Origin: Candidatus Mediterraneibacter surreyensis
GTDB taxonomy: Bacteria; Bacillota; Clostridia; Lachnospirales; Lachnospiraceae
Direction: 5' to 3'
DNA length: 33,971 nt
Assembly (NCBI GenBank): GCA_019118885.1
Contig: DWYB01000011.1
Location: forward strand, 1 to 33,971
Shown here: positions 1,546 through 20,911 of the stretch, piece by piece
Numbering within the stretch: position 1 is the stretch's first letter
How the letters are laid out: each line of letters opens with the position of its first letter
Notes under the pieces: generated by a model
Databases searched by the model: none
Told to the model about the DNA's origin: nothing
Seen by the model: the letters and a program-made list of their open reading frames with translations, nothing else
Position numbers and translations under genes: made by a program

Positions 1546-3216
1546 GCATATAGAAAAGGGAACGCCAGTTTTGTGTTATTATATTAGTCGACCAAAACCA
1601 ATAGCACAAAGGAAGGTGTTCCCTATGATTAAGAGTATACAACAGTTTGAAGAGTCTGGCATTAAAAAATTAGAGAAGATAATTGAAAGTTTTATGAAAG
1701 ACCCTAAGGATATGGCATCCTTTGTTTATGGAATCCGCGATGAGGTGATTGCTCTGGGGCTGGATCTCATAAAAGAGACATTAGAAGACTGCAACCAGAT
1801 GCTCCGTGATAGTGCAAAAAGGAAGCAGTCCTGGGAAGTGGTAAGGACCGATGGGAAAAAGCTGACAACATGTCTTGGGACTGTTTGCTTTGAAAAGACG
1901 TTGTTCCGGAATAAACAGACCAGAGAAAGCGCTTATCTGCTGGATCGGATCATAGGGATAGAAAGCCATGAGCGGCTGACAGAAGACGCTGAAGCGAAAC
2001 TGCTGGAGGAGGCAGTTCAGACTTCATACCGGAAAGCAGGGGAAGAAACAAGCCTGACAGACCAGGTGAGCAAACAAACCGTCAAGAATAAACTGCATAA
2101 ACTGGCATTCCCGCAACAGAAGGAAGAAAAGCCGGAGAAAAAGGCAGTTGAGTTTCTGTATATTGATGCGGATGAAGACCATGTATCCCTGCAGTTCAAA
2201 GAGATGAAAGGGGACCTAGAGACTGGAGAGAATAACTGGAAGAATAACTGTGTTCTGGCAAAGCTGGTGTATGTGTATGAGGGGATTGAGCCGGAATCTC
2301 CAAAGAGTAAAAGGCATAAGCTGGTCAATCCCCACTATTTCAGCGGAGTCTACGATGGAGCAGATAACGCAAAGCTGTGGGACGAGGTATATGCATATCT
2401 GGACAGCCATTATGATCTGAAAAAAGTGAAGAAGATATATCTGAATGCAGATGGAGGGACATGGATCCAGAGCGGGAAAAAGAGGATTGCAGGGATCACC
2501 AGTGTATTGGATGGATTTCATCTGCAAAAGTATCTGCTGAAAATGACAAGCCACATGAAAGACAGCGTGGATGATGCACGAAAAGAACTCTGTGATGCGA
2601 TCAAAAGCGGAACCAAGGCAGATTTCCAAAGTGTAGTTGAACGGCTGAAAGTCTGCGCAGGAACAGAAGCGACAGAAAAACGGATTGAAGAAAGCGGGGC
2701 CTATATCCTCTCGAACTGGATAGCAGCAAAAATCCGTTTAAAGGATCGAGAGACAGTAAAGGGATGCAGCGCAGAAGGGCATGTGAGCCATGTATTGTCC
2801 TCGCGGATGAGTTCCCGTCCTATGGGCTGGAGCCGGACAGGAGTAGATAAAATGGCGCATTTAAGGGCGTATTATTGGAATGGCGGGGATATGCTGGAAC
2901 TGGTCAGACAGCAGGAGCGGGAATTTCCGGTAGCAGCCGGCGCAGAAAATGAAGTGCTGAGTTGCGAGAGTATGCTGCGATGGGAGAGACATCGTCACAA
3001 TAAGCTCGGGAAATATATAGAGAGCATAAACCACAGTGTCAGTACAGAAGTGAAAAAGTATGCATGGTTTAACGCGCATATCTGGGGATTATAAAAGCAA
3101 AGGACTTGCAAGGAGAAAACAAAGGAAGTATAGTATAAAAAGGTATTGAACTGATATATCTGAAACACATCTGGCAGTTTCTGCCACTATAATTCCTACA
3201 GTAAATTTACGCCGCC
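1524..3216 (+). mobile_element. Complete ISLre2-family insertion sequence (1693 bp)
   Basis: One transposase gene fills the element. Its ends carry 22-bp imperfect inverted repeats, and it is bracketed by a perfect 9-bp direct repeat ATCGGCAGG (1515-1523 and 3217-3225). ISLre2-family elements are known for a single UPF0236-type transposase gene and about 9-bp duplications, which fits. The intact frame, ends and identical duplications suggest a fairly recent, potentially active insertion. The right end lies 8 bp upstream of the -35 box of the ileS promoter, so ileS keeps its promoter but has lost its native upstream DNA. Confidence 0.85.
1625..3094 (+). CDS. ISLre2-family (UPF0236) transposase
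   Basis: The 489-residue protein begins MIKSIQQFEESGIKKLEKI and ends near HSVSTEVKKYAWFNAHIWGL, both typical of UPF0236/ISLre2 transposases. The mid-region segments VEFLYIDADEDHVSLQ and KKIYLNADGGTWI carry acidic residues that are plausible catalytic-core positions. ATG 1625 is preferred over the in-frame codon at 1571 because AAGGAAGG lies about 8 nt upstream and the protein then starts like the family. Length is normal and there is no frameshift or internal stop. It should catalyse cut-and-paste movement of the element between its inverted repeats. Confidence 0.9.
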   Translation: MIKSIQQFEESGIKKLEKIIESFMKDPKDMASFVYGIRDEVIALGLDLIKETLEDCNQMLRDSAKRKQSWEVVRTDGKKLTTCLGTVCFEKTLFRNKQTRESAYLLDRIIGIESHERLTEDAEAKLLEEAVQTSYRKAGEETSLTDQVSKQTVKNKLHKLAFPQQKEEKPEKKAVEFLYIDADEDHVSLQFKEMKGDLETGENNWKNNCVLAKLVYVYEGIEPESPKSKRHKLVNPHYFSGVYDGADNAKLWDEVYAYLDSHYDLKKVKKIYLNADGGTWIQSGKKRIAGITSVLDGFHLQKYLLKMTSHMKDSVDDARKELCDAIKSGTKADFQSVVERLKVCAGTEATEKRIEESGAYILSNWIAAKIRLKDRETVKGCSAEGHVSHVLSSRMSSRPMGWSRTGVDKMAHLRAYYWNGGDMLELVRQQEREFPVAAGAENEVLSCESMLRWERHRHNKLGKYIESINHSVSTEVKKYAWFNAHIWGL

Positions 3217-3233: not shown

Positions 3234-3262
3234 TTGACGAACTCTGCCTTATTCTATATAAT
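3234..3262 (+). promoter_or_regulatory. Vegetative promoter of the ileS leader
   Basis: TTGACG (3234-3239), a 17-bp spacer and TATAAT (3257-3262) form a near-consensus sigma-A promoter. It sits just upstream of the T-box, as expected for a T-box operon. Confidence 0.9.
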
Positions 3263-3284: not shown

Positions 3285-3604
3285 GCAAAGGTGATGACGG
3301 AGACAGTAGGTCATATCCGAACATTCCAGCGAGCCGGGAAGGGTGCGAGCCCGGTATCAGTAGAATATTTCCGAATATCACTCCCGAACCGCAGCCCCCA
3401 ACGCATACAGAAGAAGCATGAATGCATGAGAGAGTAAGGGCTGACGCGGATCCCGCGTTAGAGGATACCATATGCGAACTGAATTGCTTTTATCACGGAA
3501 TCAGACAGTGTGTATACGGGTGAAGGAAGTTCAAGTATGTTGTAACAGGTGGTTAAAACGAGAGAAATGGCTTTCGTCCTTTTACAGGACGGGAGCCTTT
3601 TTTT
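3285..3604 (+). promoter_or_regulatory. T-box leader, isoleucine specificity
   Basis: The leader has the T-box order. A stem I region carries AGTAGG and the GAGCCGGG...CCCGGT hairpin. A specifier segment CCGAATATCACTCC contains the Ile codon ATC (3377-3379). The antiterminator sequence AGGTGGTTAAAACGAGAG (from about 3547) is followed by an intrinsic terminator. The antiterminator bulge TGGT (3550-3553) can pair with an ACCA tRNA end, which fits tRNA-Ile with discriminator A. Uncharged tRNA-Ile should stabilise antitermination and raise expression of ileS. Unusually, the terminator lies 513 nt before the ileS start. Confidence 0.9.
3569..3604 (+). terminator. T-box intrinsic terminator
   Basis: GGCTTTCGTCC and GGACGGGAGCC form the stem around a TTTTACA loop, followed by seven T. 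This is the regulated off-state of the T-box. Confidence 0.9.
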
Positions 3605-3639
3605 GTCAGATCTTAGAAAACAAGATTTGGACACCGCCA

Positions 3640-3769
3640 GACCGATCGATATGTCCATTGCGGACGCGCTTTCGCTCGGGCCGTAACGCAGCGGACACAT
3701 ATGGCTGCAAAGGACGCAGCCTTAGTGCCGGCGTTACTCTACGGTCCTTAATAGACATATCAATCGGTC
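3640..3769 (-). repeat. Structured repeat family 1, copy A (inverted)
   Basis: This 130-bp element folds on itself. The terminal arms (3640-3655 and 3754-3769) are complementary at 15 of 16 positions. Read on the minus strand it contains ATTAAGGACCGTA, AACGCCGGCACT, a hairpin GGCTGC/GCAGCC, an inner helix GTAACGC/GCGTTAC, a GCGAAAGC GNRA-type tetraloop and GCGTCCGCAAT. The single arm mismatch becomes a U-G wobble if the minus strand is the RNA. Copy B shares the loop blocks but has different, still complementary, helices. I do not recognise the family. Confidence 0.75.
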
Positions 3770-3963
3770 CGACTCCGCGAAATCAGCAGTTTATTAAAAT
3801 CCGACAGAAAAAAGGGCTCCCGGGATGTCGGCTCAGGCCGGCAGGTGCTTCAGATCCGTTGGAAAACATATATGCTTCCAGGACAAGAAAGCGCTCCAAT
3901 AAAAGGTAAGAAAGCCCCCATCTCTCCCGGTTTTGATTCAGGTTCCGTTCTGGGCAGGTCTGA

Positions 3964-4088
3964 CGCAGCTATGTGTCGATTAAGGACCGTAAAGGAACGC
4001 CGGCACTTAGATCGCGTTTTTTGCGATCTTATGTACCGCAGCGTTCCGTCCCGGGCGAGAGCGCGTCCGCAATCGACACATAGCTGCG
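3964..4088 (+). repeat. Structured repeat family 1, copy B
   Basis: The 125-bp element has perfect 18-bp terminal inverted repeats (3964-3981 and 4071-4088). Inside are ATTAAGGACCGTA, AACGCCGGCACT, a hairpin AGATCGC/GCGATCT, an inner helix GGAACGC/GCGTTCC, a GCGAGAGC tetraloop and GCGTCCGCAAT. Against copy A the unpaired blocks are nearly identical, while the arms, hairpin and inner helix differ by compensatory changes. It ends 29 nt before the ileS start, inside the transcribed leader. Confidence 0.8.
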
Positions 4089-4117
4089 GCGGACCAGAGA
4101 CAGAAAGGAAAATCAGT

Positions 4118-7100
4118 ATGTATAAGAAAGTTCCCACAGATATGAATTTTGTCGGCCGTGAGAAGGAAGTCGAGAAGTTCTGGGACGAGAACCACATCTT
4201 CGAGAAGAGTATCGAAGAGCGTGAGGGATGTCCGGAATATATCTTCTACGACGGACCGCCGACTGCAAATGGAAAACCGCACATCGGACATGTGCTCACC
4301 CGTGTCATCAAGGATATGATCCCGAGATACCGCACGATGAAGGGCTACATGGTCCCGAGAAAAGCCGGCTGGGATACCCACGGTCTTCCGGTAGAGCTGG
4401 AAGTGGAGAAATCCCTCGGCCTCGACGGCAAGGATCAGATCGAGGAATATGGTCTGGAGCCGTTTATCAAAAAATGTAAAGAAAGCGTTTGGAAATACAA
4501 AGGAATGTGGGAGGATTTCTCCGCTACCGTCGGTTTCTGGGCTGATATGGAGCATCCTTATGTAACATACCACAATACATTTATCGAGTCTGAGTGGTGG
4601 GCGCTGAAACAGATCTGGGACAAAGGCCTGCTCTACAAGGGCTTTAAGATTGTTCCCTACTGCCCGCGCTGTGGTACGCCGCTGTCCGCACAGGAAGTAG
4701 CTCAGGGCTACAAGGATGTGAAAGAGCGCTCCGCAGTTGTAAGATTTAAAGTAAAGGACGAGGATGCATATATCCTTGCATGGACGACCACCCCGTGGAC
4801 ACTGCCGTCCAACCTCGCACTCTGTGTAAACCCGAACGAGGATTACGCGAAAGTAAAGGCAGCAGACGGATACACCTATTATATGGCGTGCGCTCTTCTT
4901 GATACAGTTCTGGGAAGACTGGCAGAGGAAGGAAAGCCGGCATATGAGATCCTTGAGACATACAAAGGTACAGATCTTGAGGGCAAGGAGTACGAGCCGC
5001 TCTACCAGTGTGCCGCAGATGCTGCTGCAAAACAGAACAAGAAGGCATTCTATGTGACATGTGACACATATGTTACCCTGACGGATGGTACCGGAGTCGT
5101 ACACATCGCGCCGGCATTCGGTGAAGATGATGCGAATGTGGGAAGAAAATATGATCTTCCGTTCGTACAGCTTGTAGATGAAAAAGGAAACATGGCGGAG
5201 TCCACTCCGTTCGCAGGGCTGTTTGTAAAGAAAGCAGATCCGGAAGTATTAAAGAATCTGGATGGCAGAGGACTTCTCTTCGACGCACCGAAGTTCGAGC
5301 ACAGCTATCCTCACTGCTGGAGATGTGACACACCGCTGATCTATTATGCGCGCGAGTCATGGTTCATCAAGATGACAGCAGTACGCGATGACCTGATCGC
5401 AAATAACAACACGATCAACTGGATCCCGGAGAGCATCGGAAAAGGACGTTTCGGCGACTGGATCGAGAATGTTCAGGACTGGGGCATCAGCCGTAACCGT
5501 TACTGGGGTACTCCGCTCAATATCTGGGAGTGTGAGTGCGGACATATGCACTCCATCGGAAGTATTGCAGAGCTGAAGGAAATGTCCGACAACTGTCCGG
5601 ACGATATTGAGCTGCACCGTCCGTATATCGACGCAGTGACCATCAAGTGTCCGAAGTGCGGCAAAGAGATGCACCGTGTGCCGGAAGTGATTGACTGCTG
5701 GTTTGACAGCGGTTCCATGCCGTTTGCACAGCACCATTATCCGTTTGAGAATCAGGAGCTGTTCGAGCAGCAGTTCCCGGCAGACTTTATTTCCGAGGCA
5801 GTGGACCAGACAAGAGGATGGTTCTACTCCCTGCTTGCGATCTCCACGCTGATCTTCAACAAGGCTCCTTACAAGAACGTTATTGTCCTCGGACACGTTC
5901 AGGATGAGAACGGACAGAAGATGAGCAAGTCCAAGGGCAATGCGGTGGATCCGTTCGACGCTCTTGAGAAATACGGCGCTGACGCGATCCGCTGGTACTT
6001 CTACATCAACAGCGCACCGTGGCTGCCGAACCGTTTCCACGGGAAAGCCGTGACAGAAGGACAGAGAAAATTCATGGGAACTCTGTGGAATACCTATGCA
6101 TTCTTTGTTCTCTATGCGAATATCGATAATTTTGACGCGACAAAATATACACTGGAATACGATAAACTTACTGTAATGGATAAATGGCTTCTGTCCAAAA
6201 TGAACACCATGGTGAAAGATGTAGATAACAATCTGGCGAACTACCGTATTCCGGAGGCGGCACGTGCCCTTCAGGAGTTTGTGGACGACATGAGCAACTG
6301 GTACGTAAGAAGAAGCCGTGAGCGTTTCTGGGCAAAGGGCATGGAGCAGGATAAGATCAATGCATACATGACACTGTATACAGCGCTTGTGACCGTATCC
6401 AAGGCGGCTGCCCCCATGATTCCGTTCATGACAGAGGAAATCTATCAGAACCTTGTCCGCAGCATTGACAAGGATGCACCGGAAAGTATCCACCTGTGCC
6501 TGTTCCCGGAGGTGAATGAGGATCAGATCGATCCGGAGCTGGAGCAGAACATGGACAATGTCCTGAAGCTTGTCGTTATGGGACGTGCCTGCAGAAACAC
6601 ATCCAATATCAAGAACCGTCAGCCGATCGGTCAGATGTTCGTGAAAGCCGCGTTTACCCTGCCTGAGTTCTATCAGGAGATCGTGGCAGACGAGCTGAAT
6701 GTGAAGAATGTTAAATTTACGGAAGATGTAAGAGACTTTACTTCATACAATTTTAAACCTCAGTTAAAGACAGTGGGCCCGAAATATGGTAAAATGTTAG
6801 GTGGCATTAAGGCTGCCCTTGATTCTGTGGACGGTAACGCTGCAATGGATGAGGTCAATGAGACCGGAGCTCTTAAGCTCGATGTGAATGGTCAGGAGAT
6901 CACACTGTTCCGCGAGGATCTGCTGATCGAGACCGCACAGATCGAAGGGTATGTGTCAGAAAATGACAACGGAATTACCGTAGTCCTCGATACAAATCTG
7001 ACGCCGGAGCTCCTGGAGGAAGGATTCGTCCGTGAGATCATCAGCAAGGTACAGACCATGAGAAAAGAGGCAGACTTTGAAGTGATGGACCGTATCCGCG

Positions 7101-7273
7101 TAACTTATGACGGCAGTGACAAGGCAGAGACGATCTTCGCAAAATATGCCGATGAGATCGCCGGGGAAGTGCTCGCCAATGAAGTGGCGAAGGCAGAGCC
7201 GGCAGGCTATGTAAAGGAGTGGAAGATCAACGGTGAAACAGTTACAATGGGTGTGGAAAAGGAAGGAAAATAA
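4118..7273 (+). CDS. ileS: Isoleucyl-tRNA synthetase
   Basis: This class I synthetase (1051 residues) charges tRNA-Ile in the cytoplasm. The ATP-site motif HIGH is at residues 55-58 (GKPHIGHVL) and KMSKS at 601-605 (KMSKSKGN). The editing (CP1) domain lies between them, with TTTPWTLPSN. Paired cysteines in CPRCG, HCWRCD and CPKCG suggest bound zinc. The length and the KMSKSKGN and AGWDTHGLPVE wording match the longer, eukaryote-like bacterial class (IleS2) rather than the E. coli class. ATG 4118 is chosen because GAAAGGAA lies just upstream and the product then begins as the family does. The Ile T-box upstream fixes both identity and regulation. glgP follows 4 nt after the stop. Confidence 0.97.
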   Translation: MYKKVPTDMNFVGREKEVEKFWDENHIFEKSIEEREGCPEYIFYDGPPTANGKPHIGHVLTRVIKDMIPRYRTMKGYMVPRKAGWDTHGLPVELEVEKSLGLDGKDQIEEYGLEPFIKKCKESVWKYKGMWEDFSATVGFWADMEHPYVTYHNTFIESEWWALKQIWDKGLLYKGFKIVPYCPRCGTPLSAQEVAQGYKDVKERSAVVRFKVKDEDAYILAWTTTPWTLPSNLALCVNPNEDYAKVKAADGYTYYMACALLDTVLGRLAEEGKPAYEILETYKGTDLEGKEYEPLYQCAADAAAKQNKKAFYVTCDTYVTLTDGTGVVHIAPAFGEDDANVGRKYDLPFVQLVDEKGNMAESTPFAGLFVKKADPEVLKNLDGRGLLFDAPKFEHSYPHCWRCDTPLIYYARESWFIKMTAVRDDLIANNNTINWIPESIGKGRFGDWIENVQDWGISRNRYWGTPLNIWECECGHMHSIGSIAELKEMSDNCPDDIELHRPYIDAVTIKCPKCGKEMHRVPEVIDCWFDSGSMPFAQHHYPFENQELFEQQFPADFISEAVDQTRGWFYSLLAISTLIFNKAPYKNVIVLGHVQDENGQKMSKSKGNAVDPFDALEKYGADAIRWYFYINSAPWLPNRFHGKAVTEGQRKFMGTLWNTYAFFVLYANIDNFDATKYTLEYDKLTVMDKWLLSKMNTMVKDVDNNLANYRIPEAARALQEFVDDMSNWYVRRSRERFWAKGMEQDKINAYMTLYTALVTVSKAAAPMIPFMTEEIYQNLVRSIDKDAPESIHLCLFPEVNEDQIDPELEQNMDNVLKLVVMGRACRNTSNIKNRQPIGQMFVKAAFTLPEFYQEIVADELNVKNVKFTEDVRDFTSYNFKPQLKTVGPKYGKMLGGIKAALDSVDGNAAMDEVNETGALKLDVNGQEITLFREDLLIETAQIEGYVSENDNGITVVLDTNLTPELLEEGFVREIISKVQTMRKEADFEVMDRIRVTYDGSDKAETIFAKYADEIAGEVLANEVAKAEPAGYVKEWKINGETVTMGVEKEGK

Positions 7274-20669: not shown

Positions 20670-20816
20670 GATAAGGTCCGAAATCAGACGGAGATGAGGC
20701 AATGAAATTCAGAGCCTTAACTTTTCCATCGAATTACTTCGAAGTCGCCTTCCTCACATACCAGTCATCTCTTTAAAGTCTTTCGATGCCTCGTCTCCAT
20801 CTGTTTCTGCTTTATC
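20670..20816. repeat. Foldback element E between yfcC-like gene and element D
   Basis: A left arm at 20670-20701 (GATAA...GATGAGGCA) pairs with 20787-20816 (TGCCTCGTCTCC...TTTATC). The pairing is strong over the inner 16 positions (14 matches) and again at the outer GATAA/TTATC. The 85-nt apical part contains smaller hairpins such as TCGAATTACTTCGA. No protein-coding frame is convincing. It may be a 3' untranslated structure of the carrier gene or another structured repeat; only one copy is in the window. Confidence 0.5.
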
Positions 20817-20911
20817 GGATTCGGCAGTCGCTCCGACGAAACTGAAAATCAAAGAAACCGGTTGAAATGGGGATGTAGTCTATAAAGCTTACCCGTTTAA
20901 CTGGTTTCTAT

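Follow-up and report, generated by a model that had tools for sequence, protein, structure and literature searches.

A repeated structured module of Lachnospiraceae, found as two divergent copies upstream of ileS in a Mediterraneibacter genome

The two structured copies, A and B, that stand between the T-box leader and ileS in the window (the whole 33,971-nt stretch of Candidatus Mediterraneibacter surreyensis contig DWYB01000011.1 that was analysed) are, in our interpretation, a divergent pair of copies of the same module, which belongs to a non-autonomous, REP/BIME-like mosaic repeat found in Lachnospiraceae, a reading that we hold with a probability of about 0.6. The module is present in many copies, has its matches in the sampled genomes in one bacterial family and keeps its fold, on one strand. 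It lies against stop codons, pairs divergently, is part of elements with inverted ends and has been exchanged at one locus. Under this interpretation its own strand would be made as RNA, or else exposed as single-stranded DNA, the fold would be recognised by a putative trans-acting enzyme, and insertion or exchange would take place at the 3' ends of genes. The folded strand, probably RNA, would serve the element's own propagation, and the module seems to be one that spreads or is exchanged, not a control element of ileS.

Two divergent copies ahead of ileS

From left to right, the ileS region consists of a promoter-like site (3234-3262, window scan), a T-box leader (3285-3584, plus; RF00230 with 59.6 bits against a gathering score of 93, E 3.4e-12), its intrinsic terminator (3569-3597, plus; window scan), copy A (3633-3774, minus), a 182-nt spacer (3775-3956), copy B (3957-4097, plus) and ileS itself (4118-7273, plus; PF00133 and PF08264). 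Just upstream of the T-box lies a UPF0236 protein (1571-3094; PF06782, 213.9 bits), a family that we take to belong to the ISLre2-type transposases. The 3' end of A is directed left, towards the T-box terminator, and that of B right, 20 nt ahead of the ileS start. The covariance model R1 scored A at 128.4 bits and B at 138.5 bits, and their fold energies gave z values of -8.60 and -8.50, with 0/200 shuffles as good for each. A T-box identity of the copies was rejected, the T-box match falling outside both.

Pairwise alignment and folding gave A and B one three-way-junction fold in common, with compensated helices. In the core, a long outer helix of free sequence (P1) leads to the junction; a central helix, conserved in its internal loops, and two hairpins, one apical and one of the GNRA type, complete it. 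In the minimum-energy fold of B, all on the plus strand, the arms of P1 occupy 3957-3981 (5') and 4071-4095 (3'), the apical hairpin AGATCGC/GCGATCT 4009-4029 and the GNRA-type tetraloop hairpin GC-GAGA-GC 4055-4062, while the conserved block ATTAAGGACCGTA, which spans the end of P1, the junction and the start of the GACC helix, is identical in the two copies (3979-3991 in B). Nearly all bases of the outer arms differ between A and B with complementarity kept, and the inner helix holds one compensated pair and the apical hairpin three. The initial annotation had placed both copies correctly, the limits of the model being slightly wider, and the shared blocks, the compensated pairs, the differing yet complementary arms and the GNRA-type tetraloop in each copy that it described are all present in our alignment.

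Among the 58 genomes of the genus, 53 matched in a survey for ileS, from which 30 loci were fetched. Strong copies of both A and B were found in 17, B with a weak partial A in 1, B only in 5 and no match in 7. One of these seven was cut by a contig end, and its genome (G034) has a pair beside an ileS piece on another contig; by eye, the other six had kept T-box and terminator, with fragments of the module in four (L155, L165, L167, L170) and nothing recognisable in two (L157, L173). In the other pairs compared the spacer measured 83-207 nt. In a tree the A and B rows formed two groups, with two label changes needed and two long-branch B rows grouped among the A rows; the separate ortholog groups indicate that the ileS pair is old. 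It would have been inherited from the common ancestor of much of the genus, as a passenger past the T-box terminator, and there may be some local upkeep, the pair being old and its compensation retained in many species.

By eye, P1 arms at this place differ wholly between species while their pairing is preserved. The apical hairpin types of A and B were found swapped in sister genomes with the outer arms still matched (L145-L172): GGCTGC lies in A and GATCGC in B in G000, G015 and G009, and the reverse holds in G047, G032, G008 and G025 (by eye). Local conversion or template switching (PMC8794818) fits these patterns.

The earlier proposal of an element specific to the ileS leader was not supported by the comparison. 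B is one of 18 copies in this genome, leaving 17 others, all of which except A are at other loci. A switch linked to ileS is unlikely, because the T-box terminator precedes both copies, and six of the 30 loci hold only fragments or nothing. An ileS-specific regulator was rejected because of this dispensability and of the one-sided fold of the antisense copy A.

A family of Lachnospiraceae and the strand of its fold

The genome of the window (90 contigs, 2.93 Mb, Mediterraneibacter group) has R1 matches at 18 places, 12 further and weaker matches being readings of these places on the opposite strand. Within the genus 44/58 genomes carry R1 and 14/58 have no match, with up to 48 matches listed per genome (29 in G024, 16 in G030). 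Sampling one genome per genus, we found R1 in 105 of 299 genera of Lachnospiraceae, and a class-wide sample gave 11/391, all 11 within that family. E-values of R1 rest on a short calibration and its matches are not independent; most genomes are drafts in which repeats break contigs, so that copy numbers are lower bounds. A pattern scan of genome contigs found at least 112 stretches; among the 80 matches listed, one was titled Bacteroides and the others bore Lachnospiraceae-type or Clostridiales titles. Viral contigs gave no exact pattern match to the module, and plasmids and phages gave no blastn match. Copy number varies widely between genomes and partial copies exist. Groups of equal R1 scores comprise 5 copies in G047 and 6 in G094, and one locus (L144, G167:C21:12410-12926) holds three tandem copies at a spacing of 187 nt.

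The region of A and B matched no Rfam family, at gathering or at E up to 5. Neither did 20 family loci on the R1 strand over the core at E up to 1; in this set two weak matches below the cut-off, those in L111 and L098, overlap the core on its opposite strand. The covariance search that had been suggested as a check on the structured repeat bore it out: further copies are numerous in intergenic regions, covariation is strong, and Rfam has no match for A or B. In the literature within our reach, which included few subscription papers, we found nothing relevant on structured repeats or MITEs of Lachnospiraceae. Our results add a structured family absent from Rfam 15 in the searches made, which occupies numerous spaces between genes in common gut bacteria, and whose copies annotators of Lachnospiraceae leaders and 3' regions would otherwise call riboswitches or terminators.

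Covariation was assessed on an alignment of 16 copies from the window's own genome, from which the truncated copy L002 was omitted and a copy found later (C2:52414) is absent. Changes occurred on both sides in 33 of the 47 pairs, 97.6% of cells paired against 83.8% in shuffles, and all five covariation measures lay above all 500 shuffles, controls that are inflated by the relatedness of the copies. When the structures were slid by 1-3 columns, pairing fell to 26-50% of cells. In other genera the loops are kept and the stems changed, the internal-loop bases being invariant across genera.

The initial annotation had taken compensation between two copies as strong evidence of a selected fold. The fold is indeed conserved, but the inference was too strong: template switching makes and repairs perfect stems (PMC8794818), and compensation alone is therefore too weak an argument for selection. 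A better argument is the one-sided excess of G-U. Among 76 distinct sequences (3553 cells) we counted 130 G-U, 13 A-C and 41 other mispairs, with 65 of the 130 G-U cells in one loop-closing pair. Leaving out pairs whose commonest form is G-U, orthologs of A showed 35 G-U against 3 A-C and 9 other mispairs, and those of B 42 against 3 and 14. Since B is sense and A antisense relative to ileS and both show the same excess, it is the strand of the element itself that is constrained, a clear example of a fold preserved on a single strand regardless of how the host reads the locus. On these sequence counts the excess would be best explained by RNA, folded single-stranded DNA being possible too. A promoter scan of both strands of the window, which covers copies A and B, found no sigma-70-like match in the spacer reading into either copy, and the sole minus-strand match falls inside A.

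Placement at gene ends and composite elements

The gene on the 3' side of the module faces it with its stop in 93 of 140 copies (median 26 nt) and with its start in 47, a count that combines 79 of 95 matches (cut-off, partial and contig-end ones left out) with 78 from a set of 73 loci (without L031, L034 and L036), some places being in both. Likewise, the 3' neighbour was stop-facing in 39/59 copies of a 20-kb set, 35 of them within 60 nt. A convergent stop lay 18-36 nt from the core in 31/59 copies, compared with 3.1% of 20,000 random placements in gaps of at least 181 nt, with ORFs called by length only. In G025 and G029, the two genomes used for this count, an end motif followed within 16 nt of the stop in 24/31 cases on the 3' side, 20/30 on the 5' side and 13/23 on both, against 0.7% of random 16-mers, the motifs having been chosen after inspection of the ends. 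The abutting stop is often a TAA completed by the first end bases, and TGA and TAG occur too; these noncoding elements meet stops on both sides and leave the protein unaltered. Copies less than 1 kb apart were divergent in 11/13 pairs and convergent in none, and orientation showed no bias with respect to the replication strand (29/60 copies; 60 of 73 matches used). At loci other than ileS the copies stand behind ordinary, unrelated genes.

The end of icd illustrates this placement: the gene ends at the same residue in 30/30 genomes and the noncoding sequence after the stop differs. R1 was found there by the model in four loci (L175, L185, L199, L201), contig-end pieces in L176 and L182 resemble R1 ends by eye, and in L192 and L194 the stops are separated by just a short hairpin or by 8 bp. 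On the reverse strand, Mediterraneibacter copies read as a terminator-like stem-TGCTTTCTTTC; no T-run was evident by eye next to the stems in other genera.

Elsewhere the fold is one module of noncoding elements of 0.2-0.9 kb with inverted ends. In G047 an 873-bp stretch is common to two copies (98.97% identity), and internal deletions shorten the part shared by others; the element's right end lies about 27 nt past the core. Shared forms in G094 range from a minimal ~216 bp to a full 615 bp. In both genomes the fold is the right-hand part of the repeated element, whose ends are inverted repeats by eye, and the three elements that were read lack open frames of 100 codons or more. Among the findings named beforehand as speaking against a selected structured repeat was a match to a transposon end, and this one came half true, since the fold sits in repeated noncoding elements bounded by inverted repeats. 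At 20710-20866 the window itself matches a portion of the G047 composite (L143, positions 1544-1702) at 81%; to judge from this similarity, it probably holds there a second piece of the same element class.

Exchange is seen between a second pair of convergent genes, where R1 lies forward in G047 and reversed in G025 and G009, and where a different hairpin module takes its place in G032. An empty-site query at two loci showed module exchange at one and a clean empty/occupied pair of close relatives at neither, and no target-site duplication was recognised at the element ends inspected. A further noncoding hairpin that recurs, with a loop resembling CTCGCCTTYGGCTCAGACA, occurs in these composites as well as behind the icd stop of several species (L141 and L143 in G047; L181, L187, L188 and L199 at icd; L410 in G032).

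In the flanks of the fetched loci, ORF clusters beside the copies were ordinary genes, with no shared transposase, autonomous relative or partner enzyme. A nuclease-like ORF, at first sight an Rpn protein, recurs beside some copies (L085, L035, L113), but the one at L085 gave no Pfam family. A Y1/RAYT transposase was not supported as a required partner, as its occurrence does not track R1: in this survey of draft genomes, which counted RAYT together with other Y1 proteins, PF01797 was present in 38/44 genomes with R1 and 11/14 without, and in neither G024 nor G030.

Known systems and competing explanations

REP and BIME sequences are extragenic, high-copy imperfect palindromes with complementary changes and mosaic composites (PMC2817692, PMC3733652); REPs are RAYT-linked non-autonomous elements (PMC2817692) which in proteobacteria lie next to the 3' ends of ORFs, where their GTAG termini often supply a TAG stop, and which form pairs in opposite orientation and make use of G-T pairing (PMC3733652). 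The module is like them in being extragenic, numerous, mosaic and complementary in its changes, in its G-T (G-U) pairing, in the opposite orientation of close copies and in its position against the 3' ends of flanking ORFs. Yet its core is about 141 nt long and branched, with conserved loops, whereas REPs are palindromes of 20-40 bp; its ends start with AAATCTGAG, AATTCCGGATTT and the like (by eye) and not with the foot tag GTAG or CGTC; and, in Lachnospiraceae hosts, it shows no link to RAYT (Y1). As size, foot tag and RAYT link all fail, we do not file the module as a REP.

Miniature inverted-repeat transposable elements are short and noncoding, with inverted ends and deletion derivatives at many loci. 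The elements of G047 and G094 resemble them in their terminal inverted repeats (by eye) and the lack of a transposase gene (open frames of three elements), as well as in their short length, internal deletion derivatives and repetition at many loci, but their ends abut stops on both sides, their interior modules differ and invert at one site, and no target duplication was recognised. BOX and RUP of pneumococcus and Correia of Neisseria are intergenic repeats, likewise structured and interspersed, that are presumed to be mobilised in trans; going by such general descriptions, the module differs from them in sequence, host and fold. Integron attC sites, which have GTTRRRY core sites and are used by the integron integrase, share with it the logic of one folded strand and the position after a stop.

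Such sites suggest the most serious competitor, possible although clearly less probable than the reading that we prefer, namely that the working form is folded single-stranded DNA, as in attC or the hairpins of IS200/IS605 and REP, with an enzyme reading one strand of a cruciform. It would suit a fold that remains one-sided for either direction of host transcription, the equal G-U excess in antisense A and in B, the two thirds of loci (93/140) where the neighbouring mRNA would carry the opposite strand, and the promoter scan of A and B; yet G-U is ten times as frequent as A-C, as RNA pairing favours, and neither a replication-fork bias nor a Y1 distribution that tracks the element was seen. 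The tight placement against stops and between convergent genes, the terminator-like reverse strand in Mediterraneibacter and the variety of elements found behind the icd stop from one species to another could instead point to a device useful to the host, a two-way terminator or an mRNA 3' stabiliser for convergent genes. We consider this rather unlikely: the fold is one-sided on the strand opposite the abutting mRNA, other genera appear to do without the T-run and two icd loci with a short hairpin or 8 bp, and REPs are placed alike without needing such a role. A trans-acting or housekeeping RNA family of Lachnospiraceae that has multiplied appears more doubtful still. The invariant internal loops and RNA-like use of G-U agree with it, as does the presence of TwoAYGGAY (RF01731), a family annotated without a function, next to R1 in 2/20 family loci, but 14/58 genomes of the same genus have no match, copy number ranges widely, partial copies exist and no conserved flanking promoter was recognised.

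Very improbable, in our view, is a cis-regulatory RNA of the ileS leader. A and B orthologs do group apart, keep their fold at the same place despite wholly different arms and both persist when the spacer shrinks to 83 nt; against this stand the antisense position of A in the ileS transcript with a fold as one-sided as that of B, the 6/30 loci with fragments or nothing and the terminator retained, and the copies behind unrelated genes. We give even less credence to a palindrome held perfect by template switching alone, without selection. That process creates and repairs perfect stems (PMC8794818), P1 arms change wholesale and apical types swap between A and B in sister genomes (by eye), but it is the unpaired blocks that are conserved and mispairs are one-sided, neither of which strand-symmetric repair predicts. 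An extension of our preferred reading, the REP/BIME-like repeat, would be a previously undescribed kind of mobile intergenic element built of exchangeable structured-RNA modules (R1, TwoAYGGAY and others), with gene 3' ends as docking sites and the RNA guiding or licensing recombination by a putative enzyme; we regard it as speculative and improbable.

TwoAYGGAY and Clostridiales-1 are described as orphan structured RNAs of Clostridiales and the human gut (PMC2864571). R1 is like them in being structured and in occurring in such bacteria, but matches neither model. In the G094 element (L099/L133), and likewise in L102 from another genus, R1 is preceded by TwoAYGGAY in opposite orientation, the two diverging like A and B. 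The placing of TwoAYGGAY in the same kind of composite makes a mobility role for such orphans testable. The association is not general: above gathering, TwoAYGGAY was found in 2/20 family loci and in 1/19 longer loci, and a search of the 58 genus genomes gave no match, with the controls of that search unmatched as well. Beside R1 in L097, Clostridiales-1 (RF01699) was matched with 40.9 bits, short of its gathering score (48). The single TwoAYGGAY hit among the longer loci, on a Lachnospiraceae contig (L232, 7474-7640, minus; 125 bits), lies about 2 kb from the module copy.
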